Source: JBBIVP01 sp037439705 [NCBI: bacterium] (GTDB taxonomy: Bacteria; JBBIVP01). Taken from it: 8,229 nt of DNA. Below, in pieces: positions 270-8,229 of the stretch; within the stretch, counting starts at the first letter, position 1, and every line of letters starts with the position of its first letter. Under the pieces are notes generated by a model, which had not been told where the DNA came from, did no database searches, and worked only from the letters and a program-made list of their open reading frames with translations. The position numbers and the translations under genes are program-made. The DNA lies in contig JBBIVP010000093.1 in the NCBI GenBank assembly GCA_037439705.1, forward strand, positions 1 to 8,229, in the 5' to 3' direction.

Positions 270-665
270 TTATTTAATTTTTACATTCTCGCTTATGAAC
301 CTTATTATTTCTTCTATGAGGCTACCTGCAGGAAATACCTCATCTACTCCCATCCTTTTCAACTTCTTTATGTCCTGGGGCGGAATAACTCCACCGACGA
401 GAAAAAGAACATCTTTCTGAACCTCTTTTTTTATGAGCCTTAAAACCTTTCTTGTATGCTCTATATGCTCGCCTGATAAAAAAGAGAGTCCTATCACATC
501 TACATCTTCATCAATAGCGGTTTTCACAACCTCTTCTGGCTTTAACATCTTTCCGAGATAAATCACCTCAAATCCTGCGTCTCTCAATGCTAAACTCAAA
601 ACCTTTATTCCCCTGTCATGCCCATCAAGTGAGGTTTTGGCAAGCAGAATCTTTATTCTTTTCAT
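270..665 (-). CDS. B12-binding small subunit of the acyl-CoA mutase
   Basis: A 131-residue stand-alone cobalamin-binding domain, the usual size for the small subunit of split CoA mutases. Seen: the base-off/His-on motif DGHDRG (14-19), with H16 expected to replace dimethylbenzimidazole as the lower cobalt ligand; the preceding K10 in LLAKTSLDGH, conserved in this family; the nucleotide-loop motif GLSFLSGEH (59-67); and the third motif VGGVIPPQD (90-98). The protein keeps the complete flavodoxin-like fold up to its C-terminal helix. It overlaps the large subunit by 4 nt (ATGA) and has no clear Shine-Dalgarno sequence, so it should be translated by coupling and made in step with its partner. 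It ends in TAA at 270, and the 64-nt gap that follows is the largest in the window. No MeaB-type GTPase chaperone or epimerase gene is visible nearby. Confidence 0.93.
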   Translation of the reverse strand: MKRIKILLAKTSLDGHDRGIKVLSLALRDAGFEVIYLGKMLKPEEVVKTAIDEDVDVIGLSFLSGEHIEHTRKVLRLIKKEVQKDVLFLVGGVIPPQDIKKLKRMGVDEVFPAGSLIEEIIRFISENVKIK

Positions 666-2293
666 TTTAGTGGGGATTTCAATTTTCCAAGCGGGTCATA
701 CCTCATGCGGTAAGCTTCCCTTATTATACCCATTATTTCGCCCATAGTGCAATATGCCTTCGCACAATCCACTATGTAGGGAATTAGATTTTTGTCATTC
801 TTCGCAGCTTCTTTAAGAGCGCTGAGAGTATCAAGAACCTCTTTCCTTAACCTTTTTTTTCTCAAATCCTTTATCTTCCTTATCTGCTCCATCTTCTTTC
901 TCTTTGAAATCCTGTGAACTGGCAATGGTTTTGTCTCTTCCTGTGAACGAAAAATGTTGACCCCAACTATGAGTTTTTTTCTCTCCATTACCTCCTTCTG
1001 ATACTGATAGGCAGACCTGTCAATCTCTCCCTGAACCCATCCAGATTTTATTGTATTCACCATTCCACCTCTTTTCATTATCTCATCAAGGATTTTGTTC
1101 GCCTCCTCTTCAAGTTTGTCTGTAAGGTATTCAACATAATAAGAACCGCCAAGTGGGTCAGCACATCTTCCAACACCAGTTTCGTATGCGAGAATCTGCT
1201 GTGTTCTCAATGAAATTCTTGCGCTTTCTTTCGTGGGAAGGGCTAAGGGCTCATCATAAGCACAGCAATGAAGGGATTGAACCCCTCCGAGGACCGCTGC
1301 TAATGCTTCATAAGCAACCCTTATTATGTTGTTCAAAGGTTCCTGAGGAACGAGAGAACATCCAGCAGTGTGAACTCCAAATTTGAACCTCATCGTCCTC
1401 TCATCCCTTGCTCCATATTTTTCCTTCATCAACTTAGCCCACATCCTCCTCATTGCCCGCAGTTTTGCCACTTCTTCAAATATGTCAATATGGGCTGAAC
1501 AATAAAAAGCAATTCTGGGTCCAAACTCGTCAATTGACAATCCCCTTTTTAAACAGGCATCAATGTATGCCATTGCCATGGCGAAGGAAAAGGCAATCTC
1601 CTGAGCAGCATTCAATCCATTTTCTCTCAGATCATAGGCATTGATGTTCTGGGGATAAAAAAGTGGCATATTTTTTGTGCAGAAATCAATGATATCTGTA
1701 GCAGTTTTCAGGCAGAGTTCTGTAGGAGTGAACTCTTCAGGATATCCGCAAAAACGATGGTGAAGTGGGTCGTTCTGTATTGTCCCCCTTAGATTTCTTA
1801 TATCAATTCCCCTCTTCTGAGCAGTAGCAATGTAAAAGGCAAGGATAACAGGAGAAGCATAGGATGTGATGACGAGTGACGAACTAACCTTATCAAGAGG
1901 AATTCCATCCATCATTTCCTCCATATCTGGAAGCGAACAAAGGGAAGTTCCCTGAACCCCAACCTCATCCCTTACATCGGGATGGTCTGCATCAATCCCT
2001 GTCATTGTGGGTATATCAAAAATCACATCAAGTCCGGTTTCTCCTTCTTTAAAAAGGAACTTAAATCTTTCGTTCGTCTCTTTCGGTGTGCCGAACCCGC
2101 AGACCGCTCTCATTGTCCACAATCTTCCCCTGTACATATTCGGATATATTCCTCTCGTATAAGGAAATTCTCCTGGAAGGGATTTATCCTTTTTCCTTAT
2201 GTCATCATTCGTATAGAAAACCTTCACAGGATAACCTGACCAGGTTCTATCTTCCTCAATTTTTGAAAAATAGCCATATCTTCTTTCTTTCAT
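662..2293 (-). CDS. Large subunit of an adenosylcobalamin acyl-CoA mutase (methylmalonyl-CoA mutase family), atypical active site
   Basis: A 543-residue mutase catalytic (TIM-barrel) subunit without its own B12 domain, as in split MCM, ICM and HCM enzymes. Seen: GRLWTMR (56-62), FDIPTMTGIDADHP (92-105), GTIQND (170-175), FAMAMAYID, AHIDIFEEVAKLRAMRRMWAK (268-287 region), GGVQSLH (336-342) and DPLGGSYYVE (379-388). It acts with the adjacent B12-binding subunit in carbon-skeleton rearrangement of a CoA ester. Aligned with P. shermanii MCM, Y75, M78, R82 and Q197 are kept (Y50, M53, R57, Q173), but Y89 is V64, A116 is I91, R207 is G183 and H244 is D221. Loss of R207 argues against a methylmalonyl substrate; V64/I91 differ from the Ile/Asp of 2-hydroxyisobutyryl-CoA mutase. 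Start at ATG 2293 with AAAGGAG 7 nt upstream, and an ATGA overlap with the dehydratase gene. The C-terminal 450-543 is Lys/Arg-rich and probably contacts the small subunit. Specificity unknown. Confidence 0.9.
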   Translation of the reverse strand: MKERRYGYFSKIEEDRTWSGYPVKVFYTNDDIRKKDKSLPGEFPYTRGIYPNMYRGRLWTMRAVCGFGTPKETNERFKFLFKEGETGLDVIFDIPTMTGIDADHPDVRDEVGVQGTSLCSLPDMEEMMDGIPLDKVSSSLVITSYASPVILAFYIATAQKRGIDIRNLRGTIQNDPLHHRFCGYPEEFTPTELCLKTATDIIDFCTKNMPLFYPQNINAYDLRENGLNAAQEIAFSFAMAMAYIDACLKRGLSIDEFGPRIAFYCSAHIDIFEEVAKLRAMRRMWAKLMKEKYGARDERTMRFKFGVHTAGCSLVPQEPLNNIIRVAYEALAAVLGGVQSLHCCAYDEPLALPTKESARISLRTQQILAYETGVGRCADPLGGSYYVEYLTDKLEEEANKILDEIMKRGGMVNTIKSGWVQGEIDRSAYQYQKEVMERKKLIVGVNIFRSQEETKPLPVHRISKRKKMEQIRKIKDLRKKRLRKEVLDTLSALKEAAKNDKNLIPYIVDCAKAYCTMGEIMGIIREAYRMRYDPLGKLKSPLK

Positions 2294-3750
2294 TTCTCAT
2301 CTCCTTTAATTCCTGCTATCTCCTTAGCAAGTCTCTTTTTTTCTTCCCAGTTCACAAGCCTGTTAATCATACTTTTCTGCGCCTCCGGAGGTCCTGCCCC
2401 CTGCATTGATTCTACCATATATCCAACTGCCCCAAGACCAAACAGGAGGTTCTCTATGAGCCTTATTATCCTTATTTTATCCTCTGTTTTTACACCTTCT
2501 TTTCCCTGAAGGTATTTTTCTAAAAATTTTCCTGCTTCGGGATGGAAGAAATCCTTTTCGGATGGCAATGTGCCGATTATTCCGCCTGCAATATCCACTG
2601 CAAGCTCAGCCATTCTATACGGGAGTTTCGCCACATTGAGCTTGCACACATTTCCAAGGAGTAAATTTGTGAAATATGTGCCTTGAGAGGTCATTTCTCC
2701 TTCCGCTCCCGCTGCAATTCCGCAGGAATAAATGGTTTCGGTGAGGTAAACCATTTCAATAAGTTTTTCCTTTATGTGGGGAAATTTCATCAGTCCGTTG
2801 TATTCAGCGAGAAGGGCAACTGCTCCTATCAAAACATCAGAAACCCCTGCTTTGCATCCTCCGTAGGTCTGTCTGTGATTTGAGCCAAATAAATAAGGTA
2901 TTCTTCCAGCCCATTCATACTCTCCGCAGAGGAAAACTCTTTCCCACGGAACGAACAGGTCATCAAAAATCATTATCGTTTCCTGTGCCCCAAATCTGTA
3001 ATTTCCTACATCTATTTTGCATCCCTCAAGTTTTCTTGAATCGGAAAACTGCCTTCCATATATGTGTATTATCCCTTTCTCATCAGAAGGAACCACAAAG
3101 GCTACCGCATACTCCTTATCCTCCTCCCTCATAGCACAGGTGGGAGCAACAAATGTCCAGTGAACATTTATTGAACCGCTCTGATTTGCTTTCGCTCCCC
3201 TAACAATTATTCCTTCTGAATTCTTCTTTATCACTCTTAGATAGAGGTCTTTGTCCTTTTGTTCATGGGGTCTCAAGCCCCTGTTTCCCTTTACATCCGT
3301 CATAGCAACCCCCACATTCAAATCCTTCGTCTGCACCTCCTTCATAAATTCAATGAACCTTCTATGGTATTCCGTTCCCAGTTTCTGATCCATTTCCTTT
3401 GTTACAATGTAAAGGGCGTTGGCTGTATCCATGGTCGTGCACCTCTGAAAACAGGTTGCAGTTTTCTGACCGAGTAGCCTGGCCATCTTCACCTTTTTTA
3501 TAAGGTCCTCTTTTGTTTGATAAATGTGGGTAAACCTGTTCACCCTCTCTCCTGTTATTCCTGAAATAGCGGTCATAATATCCTCATACTCAGGACAATG
3601 GGCAAGTTCGTATGTCATAGCCACTGCATTTCTTGAGGGAATGATTATTGGATGCTCTGATGGATTTTCAACCCTTTCGCCAAAAAGGTAAACGATGGGC
3701 TTCATCTTTTTAAGACTTTCAATGTATTCCTTACCGTTCATTAAAGCCAT
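2290..3750 (-). CDS. abfD: 4-hydroxybutyryl-CoA dehydratase / vinylacetyl-CoA delta-isomerase family (AbfD-like, HpaB superfamily)
   Basis: A 486-residue flavoprotein of usual AbfD length. Characterised members are homotetramers with FAD and a [4Fe-4S] cluster; they remove water from 4-hydroxybutyryl-CoA through a ketyl radical to give crotonyl-CoA, and isomerise vinylacetyl-CoA. Seen: the cluster ligand set of the Clostridium aminobutyricum enzyme (C99, C103, H292, C299) is present as C100-FQR-C104 and, in HRQTYGGCK, H292 and C299. The same stretch keeps the catalytic Y296 and K300. E257 and E456 (in GAGPPEAQ) match acidic residues studied in that enzyme. The flavin region has RGAKANQSGS (184-193), where the catalytic Thr190 appears to be replaced by Ser191, a conservative change. 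The intact ligands argue strongly against the flavin monooxygenases (HpaB) that share the fold. The start is fixed by AGGAGG 7 nt upstream. Its stop overlaps the mutase start (ATGA), so the two are co-translated. The exact substrate may differ from 4-hydroxybutyryl-CoA. Confidence 0.88.
   Translation of the reverse strand: MALMNGKEYIESLKKMKPIVYLFGERVENPSEHPIIIPSRNAVAMTYELAHCPEYEDIMTAISGITGERVNRFTHIYQTKEDLIKKVKMARLLGQKTATCFQRCTTMDTANALYIVTKEMDQKLGTEYHRRFIEFMKEVQTKDLNVGVAMTDVKGNRGLRPHEQKDKDLYLRVIKKNSEGIIVRGAKANQSGSINVHWTFVAPTCAMREEDKEYAVAFVVPSDEKGIIHIYGRQFSDSRKLEGCKIDVGNYRFGAQETIMIFDDLFVPWERVFLCGEYEWAGRIPYLFGSNHRQTYGGCKAGVSDVLIGAVALLAEYNGLMKFPHIKEKLIEMVYLTETIYSCGIAAGAEGEMTSQGTYFTNLLLGNVCKLNVAKLPYRMAELAVDIAGGIIGTLPSEKDFFHPEAGKFLEKYLQGKEGVKTEDKIRIIRLIENLLFGLGAVGYMVESMQGAGPPEAQKSMINRLVNWEEKKRLAKEIAGIKGDEK
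2301..2307 (-). promoter_or_regulatory. Ribosome binding site of the mutase large subunit, inside the dehydratase gene
   Basis: AAAGGAG on the minus strand, 7 nt before the ATG at 2293, lying within the last codons of the dehydratase gene. The mutase thus has its own ribosome site as well as the ATGA coupling. Confidence 0.75.
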
Positions 3751-3784: not shown

Positions 3785-4189
3785 TCAAAACTCCGTTTCT
3801 ATAGATGATACGATATTTGCAAAAATGTTTGTGGCTTTTAATAACTTCATAGCTCTCACAGTATCCCCTTCAAACTCTATATTTCCTGATGTAAATGCTT
3901 CAAGTGGAGAGACCTCCCCCATCACAATTTTTGAGAGATAATCGTAGGTGGTGGTTGTCTTGAAGTCAGCATCCTTTACATCTTCAAATATAACATCAAC
4001 CAGTTTCCCTTCTTTGAACACATAACAGAAATATATCTCAGGACCCCCTCCATGAACACTTTCTGGACAGTCGGTTATGTGGTATAAAATTTTGGCAGTC
4101 AACTCCTTCCCTTCCCTTTCCATATCTGAACAGAGATTTGTCCTCCTTTTTACCTCCTCAAACCATTCCTTTGTAAGAAATTTTATCAT
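3785..4189 (-). CDS. Small stand-alone SCP2-like sterol carrier domain protein
   Basis: A 134-residue protein consisting of one SCP2-like domain. Seen: residues 50-80 run through EIYFCYVFKEGKLVDVIFED into DADFKTTTTYDYLSKIVMGE (73-92), followed by PLEAFTSGNIEFEGD (95-109) and an MKLL segment, matching the usual SCP2 pattern of a charged strand, a Thr-rich helix start, a Gly turn and the 'G-x-I-x-F-x-GD' strand. SCP2 domains form a hydrophobic tunnel that binds lipids, fatty acids or acyl-CoAs and have no catalytic residues. No signal peptide or membrane helix. The start at 4189 is chosen because AAGGAGG lies 5 nt upstream, overlapping the TAA of the preceding gene; an ATG 16 codons further upstream, at 4237, would overlap that gene by 38 nt and has no such site. 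Lying between redox genes and two CoA-ester enzymes, it may bind or present a hydrophobic CoA substrate (inference). Confidence 0.78.
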   Translation of the reverse strand: MIKFLTKEWFEEVKRRTNLCSDMEREGKELTAKILYHITDCPESVHGGGPEIYFCYVFKEGKLVDVIFEDVKDADFKTTTTYDYLSKIVMGEVSPLEAFTSGNIEFEGDTVRAMKLLKATNIFANIVSSIETEF

Positions 4190-4194
4190 GTCAA

Positions 4195-4201
4195 CCTCCT
4201 T
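4195..4201 (-). promoter_or_regulatory. Ribosome binding site fixing the SCP2-like gene start
   Basis: On the minus strand AAGGAGG lies 5 nt before the ATG at 4189 and overlaps the TAA stop (4202-4200) of the Fe-S protein gene. It decides between this start and the longer one at 4237. Confidence 0.8.
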
Positions 4202-5318
4202 ATAAAAATTCTGCAATGAATTCAGTAAGGTCTCCAATGTAATAATTCACCCTTTTTCCAGCCTTTCTGAGGTTCATTATACAAAATGGGCAAGATGTTA
4301 GAAGGTAATCAACTCCTTCAGGAACATCGTTAAGTCTCTCCTCCGCTATCTCCCTGGCAAGGAGTGGAAAACCCTCCATTACCCCTCCACCTGCACCACA
4401 GCACCAGGCATTTTCCTTACTCCTTTTCATCTCAAGAAAGGTTATCCCTTCAATTGATTTTATTATATCCCTCTGAGCGTCAAAGACCTTTGCATGCCTT
4501 CCGAGATAACATGGGTCGTGATATGTTACTACCGCTCTCCATCCCTTTTTTGGTTTGATTGCTTTTTCCCTTATTTTCCTTTTCAGAACCTCAACTATAT
4601 GGCTCACCTTCACTCCATTCAATTTATAGTCGATTTTTAGAGTTCTGTAGCAATGACTGCATATAGCTACTACCTCTTTTATTCCCCTTTCTTTTATCTT
4701 TGACAGATTTTCATCCCTTAATGAATTAAATGTGAAAAGGTCTCCTACCCTTTTCGCAAAATCCCCACAGCATATTTCATCTTTGAATACAAGAGGGTCA
4801 ATTCCGCATCTCAAAAGGAGCTCAATGGATTTTTCAAGAATGTTCTTTAGCCCCCTGTCATAATAGAAACTGCATCCTATGAAAAGGAGGATTTTGCTGT
4901 TCTCATTTTCATATTCATAAGAAAATTCTTTCCCGCCGTAAAGGTTTTTGAAATTTTTGAGGTTTTCCAAAAATTTTTTGTGTACTTCAAGTGGAGCTAT
5001 TCCGCTATTAAATGCTTCCTCCCTCAATGCAAAAAAAATGGAAAGCGTATCAACTGATGATGGGCAATGTGCCATACAATTTCCACAGGTCAGGCAGTGA
5101 TATATTCTTTCAAAGAGTGGCCCATCAAAATTTTTTATCCTCCCCTCATAAATCAATCTTGAAATTCCAACCTTTCCTCTCGCAAAGAATGTATCAATTC
5201 CGTATCTTTCTCCCATAGGGCAGAGCAGATTTACCCCACTTTTATAATCAACTGCCCTCCTGCAGAAACCACACCTTGTGCAGGTATATATTTCTTCTCT
5301 TACCCTTTCAATTGCCAT
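4200..5318 (-). CDS. Fe-S electron-transfer protein with two 4Fe-4S motifs and two CCG domains (GlcF/HdrD-like)
   Basis: A 372-residue protein in the GlpC/GlcF/HdrD class. Seen: cluster 1 ligands C13, C16, C19 and C33-Pro; cluster 2 ligands C75, C78, C81 and C85-Pro; then two CCG domains. The first is C149-x33-C183C184-x35-C220-x2-C223, the second C270-x35-C306C307-x35-C343-x2-C346. Both fit the CX31-39CCX35-36CXXC pattern that in heterodisulfide reductase HdrB binds non-cubane [4Fe-4S] clusters. No membrane segment is visible, so it is probably cytoplasmic or peripherally bound. It overlaps the end of the GlcD-like gene by 11 nt, the usual arrangement for a dehydrogenase and its Fe-S partner; it would accept electrons from the flavoprotein and pass them to a quinone, a disulfide or another carrier (inference). 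ATG at 5318 was chosen; an in-frame TTG at 5327 would add three residues and is possible, as neither has a strong ribosome site. Ends in TAA. Confidence 0.88.
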   Translation of the reverse strand: MAIERVREEIYTCTRCGFCRRAVDYKSGVNLLCPMGERYGIDTFFARGKVGISRLIYEGRIKNFDGPLFERIYHCLTCGNCMAHCPSSVDTLSIFFALREEAFNSGIAPLEVHKKFLENLKNFKNLYGGKEFSYEYENENSKILLFIGCSFYYDRGLKNILEKSIELLLRCGIDPLVFKDEICCGDFAKRVGDLFTFNSLRDENLSKIKERGIKEVVAICSHCYRTLKIDYKLNGVKVSHIVEVLKRKIREKAIKPKKGWRAVVTYHDPCYLGRHAKVFDAQRDIIKSIEGITFLEMKRSKENAWCCGAGGGVMEGFPLLAREIAEERLNDVPEGVDYLLTSCPFCIMNLRKAGKRVNYYIGDLTEFIAEFL

Positions 5319-6726
5319 AAAAATCAATGCCCATCATTCCTGGATGTAAAATTCCATTCGGATCAAGAACTTTTTTGATTTTTTTTAGTATTTCATGAAG
5401 TGGTTTTATCTGCGGAACTATCCACGGATGAGCAAGAATTCCCATCTGATGGTATGCGCCGCCTGCAAGGGCATTCCTTCTGTAAAACTCAGAAGCCATC
5501 TTCTTTGCAATTTCTAATACCTCCTCGTTATCTTCTCTGTAATGAAATACAGATGAAAAGAGGAAAGAATTGGAGACTGCAAATGCCACTATTTCATATC
5601 TCATCCCATATTTCTGAATCTCAAATTCTTCAAAAATCTCAAGGGCTATTTTTCTAAATTTCATAAAATCAAGAACTGGAATTCTCACGCACGGAAAGAT
5701 GATCGGGTAATAAAGCTCTTTCGGAGGCTTCAAACCTTTCGCAAGGGCAATTGCGGATTGAGGCATTATTTCGTAATACATCCTTGAATAATCCTCACCA
5801 ACATCTTCCCCTCCTTCCTCCTTGCATATCTTTTTGACTATTTCTATTTTCCCTTTCACTTCCTCCTTTGTGAATCCATCCACAACAATAAAAAGGATGC
5901 CTGCATTTTTCACATTCATTGTGAGAAATCCGTCAGCATATATAAGGCTTAATGGGATTCTCTTCCACATAATTTTGTGGGAAGCAATTATCCCTCTTTC
6001 TATCTCATCGAAAACAAATGTTGAAAAACCAAGTTCATCGGGTTCAGGAAATAGGTTCAGGGTTATCTCGGTAATAATTCCAAATATGCCATGAGAATTT
6101 ATAAAAAGTCCGGTGAGGTCTCCACCGTGAACATATCTTGAAAGCCCTTTCGGAGAGGAAGGGTTGGCATTGGAACCCGTTCTTATTATCTCTCCGTTCG
6201 GAAGAACTACCTCAAGACCGAGAAGGTTTTCCCCAGTGCTTCCATATTTCGCAGAGCAATATCCCATTGAGCCTATCGCACAAGCGCCACCAACAGTTGC
6301 TGAATAGGAAGATACCGGACCAAGAAAGCCCGTTGTCATTTTATATTGGTGAAGAAGGGAATTAAGTCTTGACCATGTAATTCCGGGCTGGACGCTCACG
6401 CTGAAGTTTTTTTCGTCTATCTCAAGAATCCGATCCATTCCTGTAAGGTCAAGGACTATTGAATTTTCCTTTAAAGGAATTGTGCATCCAGCAGGATGAG
6501 TTCCAGAACCGCGCGGAACAAGGGGAAGAAGGTGCTCATTGGCAAGTTTCACAATTTTTGAAACCTCACCTGCACTCCTCGGTCTCACAACCGCCATCGG
6601 CGGAACTCCCTTGAGGGGAGATGTATCCCTTGAATAAACGAGAAGGTCAGCGGGATGGGAACTGACATTTTCGGGTGAGCATATATCCTTCAAAGCATCT
6701 ATTATTTCTTCTTTTTTAAACCTCAT
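5308..6726 (-). CDS. GlcD-like FAD-linked oxidase/dehydrogenase (FAD_binding_4 / VAO fold)
   Basis: A 472-residue flavoprotein of the glycolate oxidase GlcD / D-lactate dehydrogenase family, of usual length. Seen: a PCMH-type FAD domain at about 40-230 with VVRPRSAGEVSKIV (46-59), PRGSGTHPAG (71-80), VQPGITW (112-118), a GG-A-x-GSMGYCSAKYG stretch (146-162) and DLTGLFINSHGIFGIITE (203-220); then a FAD-oxidase C-terminal domain ending with the family signature LDPNGILHPG (454-463). H426 in GGAYHQMG sits roughly where GlcD relatives have an active-site His. The family oxidises 2-hydroxy acids to 2-oxo acids and usually hands electrons to a partner Fe-S subunit; the next gene down encodes just such a protein. 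There is no obvious Shine-Dalgarno sequence before the ATG. The gene starts 1 nt after the upstream stop, so coupled translation is likely. The substrate cannot be read from the sequence: a hydroxy acid or hydroxyacyl intermediate of the local pathway is inferred. Confidence 0.88.
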   Translation of the reverse strand: MRFKKEEIIDALKDICSPENVSSHPADLLVYSRDTSPLKGVPPMAVVRPRSAGEVSKIVKLANEHLLPLVPRGSGTHPAGCTIPLKENSIVLDLTGMDRILEIDEKNFSVSVQPGITWSRLNSLLHQYKMTTGFLGPVSSYSATVGGACAIGSMGYCSAKYGSTGENLLGLEVVLPNGEIIRTGSNANPSSPKGLSRYVHGGDLTGLFINSHGIFGIITEITLNLFPEPDELGFSTFVFDEIERGIIASHKIMWKRIPLSLIYADGFLTMNVKNAGILFIVVDGFTKEEVKGKIEIVKKICKEEGGEDVGEDYSRMYYEIMPQSAIALAKGLKPPKELYYPIIFPCVRIPVLDFMKFRKIALEIFEEFEIQKYGMRYEIVAFAVSNSFLFSSVFHYREDNEEVLEIAKKMASEFYRRNALAGGAYHQMGILAHPWIVPQIKPLHEILKKIKKVLDPNGILHPGMMGIDFYGN

Positions 6727-6727
6727 C

Positions 6728-8229
6728 TCAATCGAAAGAATTGGCTATCTCAAAGGCGGAAATAATGGCGTGGTCTATCTGCCTCGGCACTATAGCGTCT
6801 CCACATCTTTCAACATTCATCCCAATCTTTTTTAGTTCAAAATATAAATCCGCATTGGGCATGTCGGGGCATATAAGGACTACTTTATCACAGGGTATCT
6901 CCCTTGTTGAAAAGGTCATCGTGTTCATCACAATGCATCCATTATCGGTAATTTCCTCAACTGCTGAGAAGGTTTGAATTTCTCCTCCGAGCATGAGGAT
7001 TTCCTGAAGAAGAAAAAAGGAAGAGATGCTTTCCCCTTTTCCATATTCAAGGATATTTTCATAGGGGTCAAGGAGGATAACTTTTTTTCCCTTTTCAACG
7101 AGAAACCTTGCGCAATATATCCCTTTATGGTATGGAGCGGTGGAATACACCACAATTCTTTCTCCATCTACATTTCCATCTCTTTTATAAACATCTTCCC
7201 ATGTTAGCAGGTTTTGATGATGGGGATTTTTTATCTCTGGAAATGGCGGGGGAACACCCCTTGATATCTTTGAGCCTGTTGCAATAACCACAAAATCAGG
7301 ATTAAGAGAAAGGACAAACTCTGAATCAGCAAAAGTTTTTAATTTTACCTCTACATCAATTTCCTCAAGACGAATTTTAAGATGCTCAACAGGTTCAAGA
7401 AGGGAATCCCTTTTTGGGGTTTTACTTATAAGATTTATCTTTCCGCCAAGTTCCTTCTCCTTCTCAATCAATATAACCTCATGCCCTTTTTCTCTTAGAA
7501 CCTCCGCTGCCTTCATACCTGCTATTCCTCCTCCCACGACAACTGCTTTTTTCTTTGACCTTGCTGGCTTGATTTTCATATACCTCTCTCTCCCTGCGGA
7601 CGGATTCTGAGAGCAGGAAAGGTGAAGTCCTGCCCTTATCCTCCCTATGCATCCCTGATTGCATCCCATACATCTTCTAATGAGATGCCCTTTTCCTTCC
7701 ATCGCCTTTTTTGGAAAATCTGGATCGCATATCAGCCCCCTTGTTACAGCCACCATGTCCGCCTTCTTATCCCTTATTATTTCTTCCGCTATCGCTGGAG
7801 AATTTATTCTTCCTGCAATTATAATTGGGAGATGAACAACAGATTTCATCATTTCTCCGTATCCAGCAAAGCAGGCAACAGGAAAATTCATTGGAGGAGA
7901 GATTGTAAAGAATGTGGTATAATTTCCACATGTTAGCGAGAGGTAGTCCACTTTTCCCAGAGTTTCTATAATTTGTGCCACCTTTTTTGAATATTCTGGC
8001 GTTATTCCGTATCCAAGTAGCTCGTCAACGCACAATCTTACCCCTATCACCATCCCTTTTCCCACTGCTTCATAAACCACTTCTATTACTTCGCACAGAA
8101 GTCTTGTCCTTCCCTCGAAATCCATTCCGTATTCGTCAGTCCTTCTGTTTGAGTATGGTGAGAGAAATTGCTGAAGGAGATATCCGTGTGCACAATGAAT
8201 TTCTATCCCATCTGCTCCTGAATCCATTT
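6728..8229 (-). CDS. OYE-type NADH:flavin oxidoreductase with 4Fe-4S and FAD/NAD(P) domains (2,4-dienoyl-CoA reductase/TMADH-like), N-terminus off the window
   Basis: The visible 499 residues are the C-terminal part of a multidomain reductase of the FadH/trimethylamine dehydrogenase/BaiCD type; the frame is open to the window edge and the first Met at 8227 aligns inside the TIM barrel, so the true start lies outside. Seen: end of the FMN barrel with an EIHCAHGYLLQQFLSP motif (residues 9-24 of the fragment); a 4Fe-4S motif C186-x2-C189-x3-C193-x11-C205, the same spacing as in FadH; an FAD-binding GGGIAG at 232-237; ATGS at 317-320; and a C-terminal GDAIVPRQ at 477-484. Family members pass electrons from NAD(P)H through FAD and the cluster to FMN, which reduces an activated C=C bond or demethylates an amine. 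Oddities: the FadH region holding catalytic His252 reads CGNYTTF with no His, and the second nucleotide-binding motif (YSTAPYHKG, 361-369) is poor in glycine. It is therefore probably not a classical dienoyl-CoA reductase. It ends 1 nt before the next gene. Substrate unknown. Confidence 0.9.
   Translation of the reverse strand, partial: MDSGADGIEIHCAHGYLLQQFLSPYSNRRTDEYGMDFEGRTRLLCEVIEVVYEAVGKGMVIGVRLCVDELLGYGITPEYSKKVAQIIETLGKVDYLSLTCGNYTTFFTISPPMNFPVACFAGYGEMMKSVVHLPIIIAGRINSPAIAEEIIRDKKADMVAVTRGLICDPDFPKKAMEGKGHLIRRCMGCNQGCIGRIRAGLHLSCSQNPSAGRERYMKIKPARSKKKAVVVGGGIAGMKAAEVLREKGHEVILIEKEKELGGKINLISKTPKRDSLLEPVEHLKIRLEEIDVEVKLKTFADSEFVLSLNPDFVVIATGSKISRGVPPPFPEIKNPHHQNLLTWEDVYKRDGNVDGERIVVYSTAPYHKGIYCARFLVEKGKKVILLDPYENILEYGKGESISSFFLLQEILMLGGEIQTFSAVEEITDNGCIVMNTMTFSTREIPCDKVVLICPDMPNADLYFELKKIGMNVERCGDAIVPRQIDHAIISAFEIANSFD

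Follow-up and report, generated by a model that had tools for sequence, protein, structure and literature searches.

The 8,229-nucleotide contig JBBIVP010000093.1 of JBBIVP01 sp037439705 (the window, by which we mean this whole stretch) carries two adjacent genes, at positions 662-2293 and 270-665, that likely encode a heterodimeric adenosylcobalamin (AdoCbl)-dependent carbon-skeleton mutase of an uncharacterised subfamily. Judging from its sequence, the enzyme is probably catalytically active, and its substrate probably differs from those of the characterised relatives with which we compared it. We infer activity because the catalytic residues and the B12 motif are kept and relatives down to about 50% identity keep the altered pocket too. 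We read this pattern as a catalytic site that appears to have been rebuilt and fixed, next to a substrate pocket that seems tunable.

The large subunit has the barrel domain of the methylmalonyl-coenzyme A (CoA) mutase (MCM) family over its full length, as seen both with Pfam MM_CoA_mutase (PF01642; residues 16-528, 612 bits) and by structural alignment, and it scores 579 bits with the NCBIfam model acid_CoA_mut_N (cut-off 304). Its nearest solved sequence is that of 2-hydroxyisobutyryl-CoA mutase (HCM; 4r3u, HMMER E 8.7e-129). A ligand-free AlphaFold2 model of this subunit, built from a 20-row alignment, reached a mean predicted local distance difference test score (pLDDT) of 84 and a predicted template modelling score (pTM) of 0.87, and it covers HCM and MCM over nearly their full length. 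In VIA-align, the model matched 4r3u with Z 49.3 and a root-mean-square deviation of 2.2 over 525 residues at 39% identity, human MCM with Z 49.2, the P. shermanii substrate complex 4req with Z 48.5 and the fused isobutyryl-CoA mutase IcmF with Z about 40. The small subunit has the base-off DxHxxG motif of B12-binding domains; LDGHDRG is invariant in 10 of 10 aligned small subunits, as is the Lys three residues before it (K-x2-LDGHDRG).

Residues are numbered here as in P. shermanii MCM, a numbering checked by the letters at Y89, Q197, R207, Y243, H244, E247 and Q330, and were read from MAFFT alignments of P. shermanii MCM, human MCM, HCM (4r3u) and up to 114 other sequences. His244 and residue 207 are common guides for assigning these mutases; in MCM, Y89 and R207 presumably form the carboxylate-binding pair, and H244 is taken to contact the thioester carbonyl. 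The first-pass annotation of the window, made without database searches, had proposed that Y89 becomes V64, that I91 stands where HCM has its hydroxyl-binding Asp (A116 in MCM) and that H244 becomes D221. The alignments reproduced all three pairings, which lie within conserved blocks (YHMQEAG / YDLRENG), and the Asp at 244 recurs in 36 of the 38 sequences at least 50% identical to the window's, so it is beyond chance. The same annotation had called every position secure, which proved right for 89, 116 and 244 and too strong for 207, where the window mutase carries a one-residue insertion around 180-186. HMMER and one MAFFT run pair column 207 with Y184, another MAFFT run gives Gly, and the motif HxRxCG, common to the window and its insertion-free relatives, pairs R207 with G183. 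The proposed change of R207 to G183 therefore depends, in its exact residue, on a one-residue gap; the conclusion that R207 is substituted stands because neither G183 nor Y184 is Arg or Gln. Its statement that isobutyryl- and 2-hydroxyisobutyryl-CoA mutases keep His244 and have Gln207 agrees with what we saw in three fused IcmF and two HCM rows.

Substitutions extend beyond these three hallmark sites: Q330 is replaced by H308, F287 by Y264, N366 by C344, S241 by N218, H328 by G306, W334 by C312, G289 by S266 and S114 by D89, an Asp that occurs in the window only among the 39 core sequences defined below. Q197, Y243, E247, R283 and E370 are retained, and together with the small-subunit motif they leave the B12 side and the barrel motifs intact, as had been claimed. 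Column 370 is Glu in 79 of 79 non-redundant sequences; we take E370 to be an adenosyl-ribose ligand, and 330, 366 and 370 to be the adenosyl ribose contacts.

Relatives were gathered by scanning an 84,980-species genome collection, which gave 32 loci and can detect a locus only through one of six 8-residue patterns, and by further searches of the 10 genomes behind those loci, 395 Desulfobacterota genomes and 301 Chloroflexota genomes. The best relatives of the window mutase reached at most 52% identity in the collection-wide scan; in the two phylum searches the highest values were 58% along the whole protein and 63% along a fragment. Matches at E 1e-165 or better were found in 19 of the 395 Desulfobacterota genomes and in 1 of the 301 Chloroflexota genomes, the latter with a protein carrying Asn at 244, and the phylum of G009, represented by three genomes, gave no mutase relative. 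The resulting table holds 118 sequences, many of them near-copies (the window's, 114 from loci and 3 PDB segments); partial mutases, whose match starts after query residue 160 or ends before 380, are left out. One such partial sequence, L028, has Asp at 244.

Across the 118 sequences, residue 244 is His in 55, Asp in 44, Asn in 12, Val in 3, and Ser, Thr, Ala or Phe in one each. Among the 38 that are at least 50% identical to the window's, D244 and H330 occur in 36 each, Y287, C366 and N241 in 37 each and P200 in all; at 49% identity or more (n=42), residue 244 is Asp in 38, His in 2, Ser in 1 and Asn in 1. We defined a core of 39 sequences as the window's plus those at least 49% identical to it with D244 (mean pairwise identity 61%, minimum 49%). 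Because the core was chosen for D244, the invariance of this residue within it holds by definition; H330, Y287, C366, N241, P200, Y243, E247, R283 and E370 are invariant there as well. The first five of these appear in the 55 His-type sequences 1, 0, 3, 0 and 0 times, respectively. Within the core, position 89 is V, L, A or G, position 114 is N, S or D, and positions 117 and 119 hold six and four different residues. This contrast suggests that the fixed set would be catalytic and that positions 89, 114, 117 and 119 would determine specificity. In 79 non-redundant sequences, the 244/330 pairs were H/Q (33), D/H (18), N/Q (8) and V/H (3), with others scattered, and relatedness explains part of this covariation. 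All ten references (four MCM-type, two HCM, three IcmF and one MeaA) have His244, Q330 and either Arg or Gln at 207.

A 79-row tree, computed with a quick method after leaving out rows more than 80% identical to another or shorter than 380 letters, placed the window mutase away from every reference. The references were MCM (human, P. shermanii and two plasmid homologues beside mce genes), HCM 4r3u, two IcmF and one MeaA; the Methylibium PM1 HCM is in the table and, being more than 80% identical, absent from the tree, and two were kept of the three fused IcmF proteins identified by an NCBIfam model above its cut-off. The subtypes compared were MCM, HCM, fused IcmF and MeaA. The window mutase is grouped with 19 other rows in a set of 20 (16 D, 3 N and 1 S at 244; Shimodaira-Hasegawa-like approximate likelihood ratio test, SH-aLRT, 97) apart from all four, and this set nests in a 38-row group (support 92) that contains no reference. 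That group takes in 37 of the 39 tree rows without His244 plus one His row (L055); the two rows outside it are L027 (N) and L045 (T). In the free tree the 16 core rows do not form one clade because an N-type trio came between them. Constraining these 16 non-redundant rows together gave a log-likelihood 0.55 higher (p 0.51), and a single origin of the core is allowed, not proven. A clade of the window mutase with HCM was rejected (approximately unbiased test, p-AU 4.3e-5), which leaves the window mutase off the HcmA branch.

By its residues, too, the window mutase stands outside these subtypes. It has V64 and G183/Y184 in place of the Y89 and R207 of MCM, and I91 and G183/Y184 in place of the Asp116 and Q207 found in both HCM rows. 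IcmF rows L122-L124 have F89, Q207 and H244, a combination absent from the window, whose large subunit stands alone rather than fused to a G-domain. Neither its placement nor Y89/R207/H244 joins it to MeaA, of which the sole representative, L119, sits on a long branch with an unsure place. The first-pass claim that the residue combination matches no known subtype thus holds against MCM, HCM, fused IcmF and MeaA, with the qualification that dozens of uncharacterised relatives from anaerobes have it in common. Of that annotation's proposal of an active enzyme with a new substrate, the retained residues and conserved pocket uphold the look of activity; the new substrate is what we would deduce. 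It had also named three observations that would speak against its proposal, and neither His at 244, nor Arg at 207, nor placement inside a characterised subtype appeared in the alignments and tree; the structural comparison behind this check was whole-chain.

The mutase genes belong to a run of genes on one strand (Table 1), which we treat as an operon. Four bases are shared between the end of the gene for the AbfD-type protein (a 4-hydroxybutyryl-CoA dehydratase/vinylacetyl-CoA delta-isomerase type) and the start of the mutase gene, and another four between the end of the mutase gene and the start of the B12 subunit gene, which suggests translational coupling of all three. In the AbfD-type product, C100, C104, H292 and C299 align with C99, C103, H292 and C299 of 1u8v; we take them to be the four [4Fe-4S] ligands. 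Upstream of this gene, on the same strand, are the SCP2-like, CCG Fe-S, GlcD-type and old yellow enzyme (OYE)-type genes. The CCG Fe-S protein is the probable partner of the GlcD-type flavoprotein, the two forming a probable 2-hydroxyacid dehydrogenase pair. The TIGR03997 match of the OYE-type product spans profile positions 153-643 of 645; this product also matches BaiCD, bilirubin-reductase-long and mycofactocin OYE models, all below their cut-offs.

Table 1. Genes of the window, with the match or feature on which each description rests.
Product	Positions	Strand	Basis
B12-binding small subunit, KTSLDGHDRG motif	270..665	minus	NCBIfam acid_CoA_mut_C 144 bits, cut-off 57
AdoCbl-dependent acyl-CoA mutase large (substrate-binding barrel) subunit	662..2293	minus	543 aa, ATG start, no internal stop
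4-hydroxybutyryl-CoA dehydratase / vinylacetyl-CoA delta-isomerase type protein	2290..3750	minus	1u8v E 1e-170, 6vjr E 1e-159
SCP2-like (sterol-carrier/lipid-binding) protein, weak match, start codon chosen by us	3785..4192	minus	PF02036, E 4.9e-6
Fe-S protein, 4Fe-4S dicluster and CCG domains	4200..5318	minus	domain models
GlcD-type FAD-linked 2-hydroxyacid dehydrogenase	5308..6726	minus	below NCBIfam cut-offs; D-lactate dehydrogenase 8jdb E 5.9e-38
OYE/2,4-dienoyl-CoA-reductase-like flavoprotein, N-terminal part beyond the window	6728..8227	minus	TIGR03997 405 bits, cut-off 793

To place this arrangement among its relatives, we compared 35 loci that carry this mutase or a close sister type (L005 and L040 cover one and the same stretch; N or S stands at 244 in L006, L039 and L041), grouping neighbour proteins by similarity clusters and typing 16 of them by family models. 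Acyl-CoA dehydrogenases (18), B12 subunits (19), enoyl-CoA hydratase-like proteins (11), SCPx-type thiolases (10) and D-2-hydroxyacid dehydrogenases (6) were found beside them, a set that, as expected, fits acyl-CoA degradation. The HpaB/AbfD family appeared in one locus, L035, as a protein without the Fe-S cysteines; its gene (L035:6028-7752) follows a core mutase and B12 subunit, and about 85 residues at the start of the frame lie outside the match. In L099, a full-length OYE relative stands beside a core mutase. AbfD relatives at E 1e-130 occur in 100 of the 395 Desulfobacterota genomes, with several copies in some, and two of them (G185:C754 and G029:C277) are 68% identical to the window's. 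A tblastn search of 40 stretches with AbfD relatives (32 distinct places, mostly with flanks of about 1.5 kb) found no mutase or B12 subunit. As read from sequence starts, the AbfD relatives in G185:C72 and G029:C277 have acyl-CoA dehydrogenase-like and electron transfer flavoprotein-like neighbours, and the one in G185:C754 has OYE-like neighbours. With one of 35 loci on one side, its ligands missing, and none of 40 stretches on the other, an AbfD linkage as a group-wide rule was rejected.

In the mechanism we propose, substrate binding would lead to Co-C homolysis, the 5'-deoxyadenosyl radical would take a hydrogen, and the CO-S-CoA group would move to the adjacent carbon, following the pattern of MCM or isobutyryl-CoA mutase (ICM). 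The Asp244/His330 pair may stand in for His244 at the thioester carbonyl, with either His330 acting and Asp244 orienting it, or Asp244 acting directly. The side group handled would be a non-carboxylate, with residues 89, 114, 117 and 119 setting specificity. In anaerobic Desulfobacterota, such an enzyme could convert branched acyl-CoAs that block beta-oxidation to linear ones or run the other way; in the window, the mutase might share its product or substrate with the AbfD-type dehydratase/isomerase.

Several observations weigh against an active mutase of a new subfamily. The H244A variant of MCM is strongly slowed, and Asp at 244 might therefore go with low activity. The geometry of the pocket is drawn from sequence alignment and from a ligand-free model, in which E348 (MCM E370) lies within a stretch of pLDDT below 50 (348-351), and the Asp-His pairing is a sequence-level proposal. 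Two of the 38 closest sequences have another residue at 244 (Ser in L039, Asn in L006), and the D/H pairing is not universal because Lys, Asp or Asn stands at 330 in three D-type rows that lie beyond the core. Relatives of the GlcD, CCG and SCP2 genes were found in none of the 35 loci and OYE relatives in two (L035 and L099), absences that mean little because some flanks are short. A degenerate or non-catalytic paralogue, suggested by the lost active-site His and carboxylate ligand and by the wealth of paralogues in the genomes of close relatives, is nonetheless very improbable: the frame is open, the B12 subunit gene overlaps it, E370, Y243 and R283 are kept, and the new residue set is itself conserved among relatives. 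Drift within a known subtype (MCM, ICM, HCM or ethylmalonyl-CoA mutase) would account for the family fold and sequence and for HCM as nearest solved relative at the identity and Z score given above, but we consider it extremely improbable given the uniform residues of the ten references, the position of the window mutase in the tree and the rejection of a clade with HCM.

Alkylsuccinyl-CoA mutases exist in anaerobes, and a mutase acting on aryl- or alkyl-succinyl- or -malonyl-CoA, such as the benzylmalonyl-CoA mutase IaaG, would suit such a setting. PMC8360864 names IaaGH, an anaerobic example of this type. Substrates of this kind have a free carboxylate, with which loss of the R207 ligand would be unexpected, and the 16 typed neighbour proteins, a small sample, included no glycyl-radical synthase or iaa-like gene; we hold the idea to be quite improbable. 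We also considered a natural lactyl-CoA mutase, in view of the GlcD gene and the engineered lactyl-CoA mutase described in PMC11599936, but it would leave the AbfD-type gene unexplained. That gene is taken up in a narrower form of our preferred explanation, in which 3-hydroxyisobutyryl-CoA (2-methyl-3-hydroxypropionyl-CoA) would be converted to 4-hydroxybutyryl-CoA and then dehydrated by the AbfD-type enzyme to crotonyl-CoA. The 4-base overlap of the two genes, the Fe-S ligands and close 1u8v match of the AbfD-type protein and the window-specific D89 (MCM 114), a possible hydroxyl ligand, all agree with this, and ICM-type thioester migration would yield 4-hydroxybutyryl-CoA. It is nevertheless unlikely, as the association is a single locus, the only HpaB-family neighbour elsewhere lacks the Fe-S ligands, none of the 40 AbfD stretches held a mutase or B12 subunit, and the GlcD/CCG, SCP2 and OYE proteins have no obvious place in so short a pathway. 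Returning to the uncharacterised subfamily, a bolder extension, which we advance tentatively and on balance doubt, is that the subfamily with Asp244/His330 (plus Tyr287, Asn241 and Cys366) belongs, as a single branch, to a large and so far hidden radiation of mutases lacking His244, with up to about 30 per anaerobic genome, many active-site types and a different acyl-CoA for each; the window's member, for instance as a 3-hydroxyisobutyryl-CoA/4-hydroxybutyryl-CoA mutase, would be tied to an AbfD-type radical enzyme.

In eight draft genomes (1.9-3.1 Mb), chosen from 39 because their first-look counts were high, mutase matches at E 1e-50 numbered as follows: G010 30, G085 28, G118 17, G147 15, G199 24, G222 24, G049 17 and G174 12. 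Loci from these eight genomes include L033-L034, L036-L037, L039, L041-L043, L045 and L048-L063, and further L098-L103, L109-L110 and L112-L114. Within G010 (bin CSMAG_2994), seven residues occur at position 244 (D, N, H, V, S, T and F); five of its loci (L059-L063) keep Y89/R207/H244, with Gly at column 87 (Arg in most others) and R, S, M, H or G at 330. Tandem arrays of different mutase types, interleaved with B12 subunit genes and a MeaB-like cluster-8 gene, were seen in L003:8615-18885, L038 and L115. Those in L003 and L115 bring together D244, H244 with Q207, and N244 types, and in L003 the array is followed by HMG-CoA-synthase-like and thiolase genes.

The conserved loss of His244, of the residue at 207, of Gln330 and of Asn366 offers a natural test of the need for His in B12 radical catalysis, and the group predicts carbon-skeleton rearrangements in anaerobes that are as yet unassigned. 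The label "methylmalonyl-CoA mutase" would wrongly imply propionate metabolism, possibly many times over in some genomes. Among titles and abstract openings of open-licence papers, we found no report of mutases without the active-site His or of genomes with tens of mutases, which does not imply absence from print; the available parts of PMC13188929 and PMC6759758 give no residue code for the window's mutase group. PMC7176365 treats HcmAB along with RcmAB, a distant relative, and reports an RcmAB-like mutase from the acetone-degrading Desulfococcus biacutus; PMC5719088 proposes a hexylmalonyl-CoA mutase belonging to the HCM subclass, with distant homologues in thermophiles.

Compared with known systems, the neighbouring product resembles AbfD nearly over its full length, including the four cluster ligand residues, but such a gene beside a mutase turned up in neither the 40 AbfD stretches nor the 35 mutase loci. 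MCM (MutB, MUT) has in common with the window mutase the fold, the B12 site and Q197, Y243, E247, R283 and E370, whereas its Y89, R207, H244, Q330 and N366 are all replaced. Fused IcmF, which acts on non-carboxylated acyl-CoAs, is among the fold matches of our model, yet it has F89, Q207, H244, Q330 and a G-domain fusion, and occupies a separate branch. HcmAB (4r3u), the nearest solved sequence, is like the window mutase in its separate large and small subunits, the barrel fold, an aliphatic residue at 89 and no Arg207; it differs in having H244, Q330, F287, N366, Q207 and D116, where the window mutase has Asp, His, Tyr, Cys, Gly or Tyr, and Ile, respectively.

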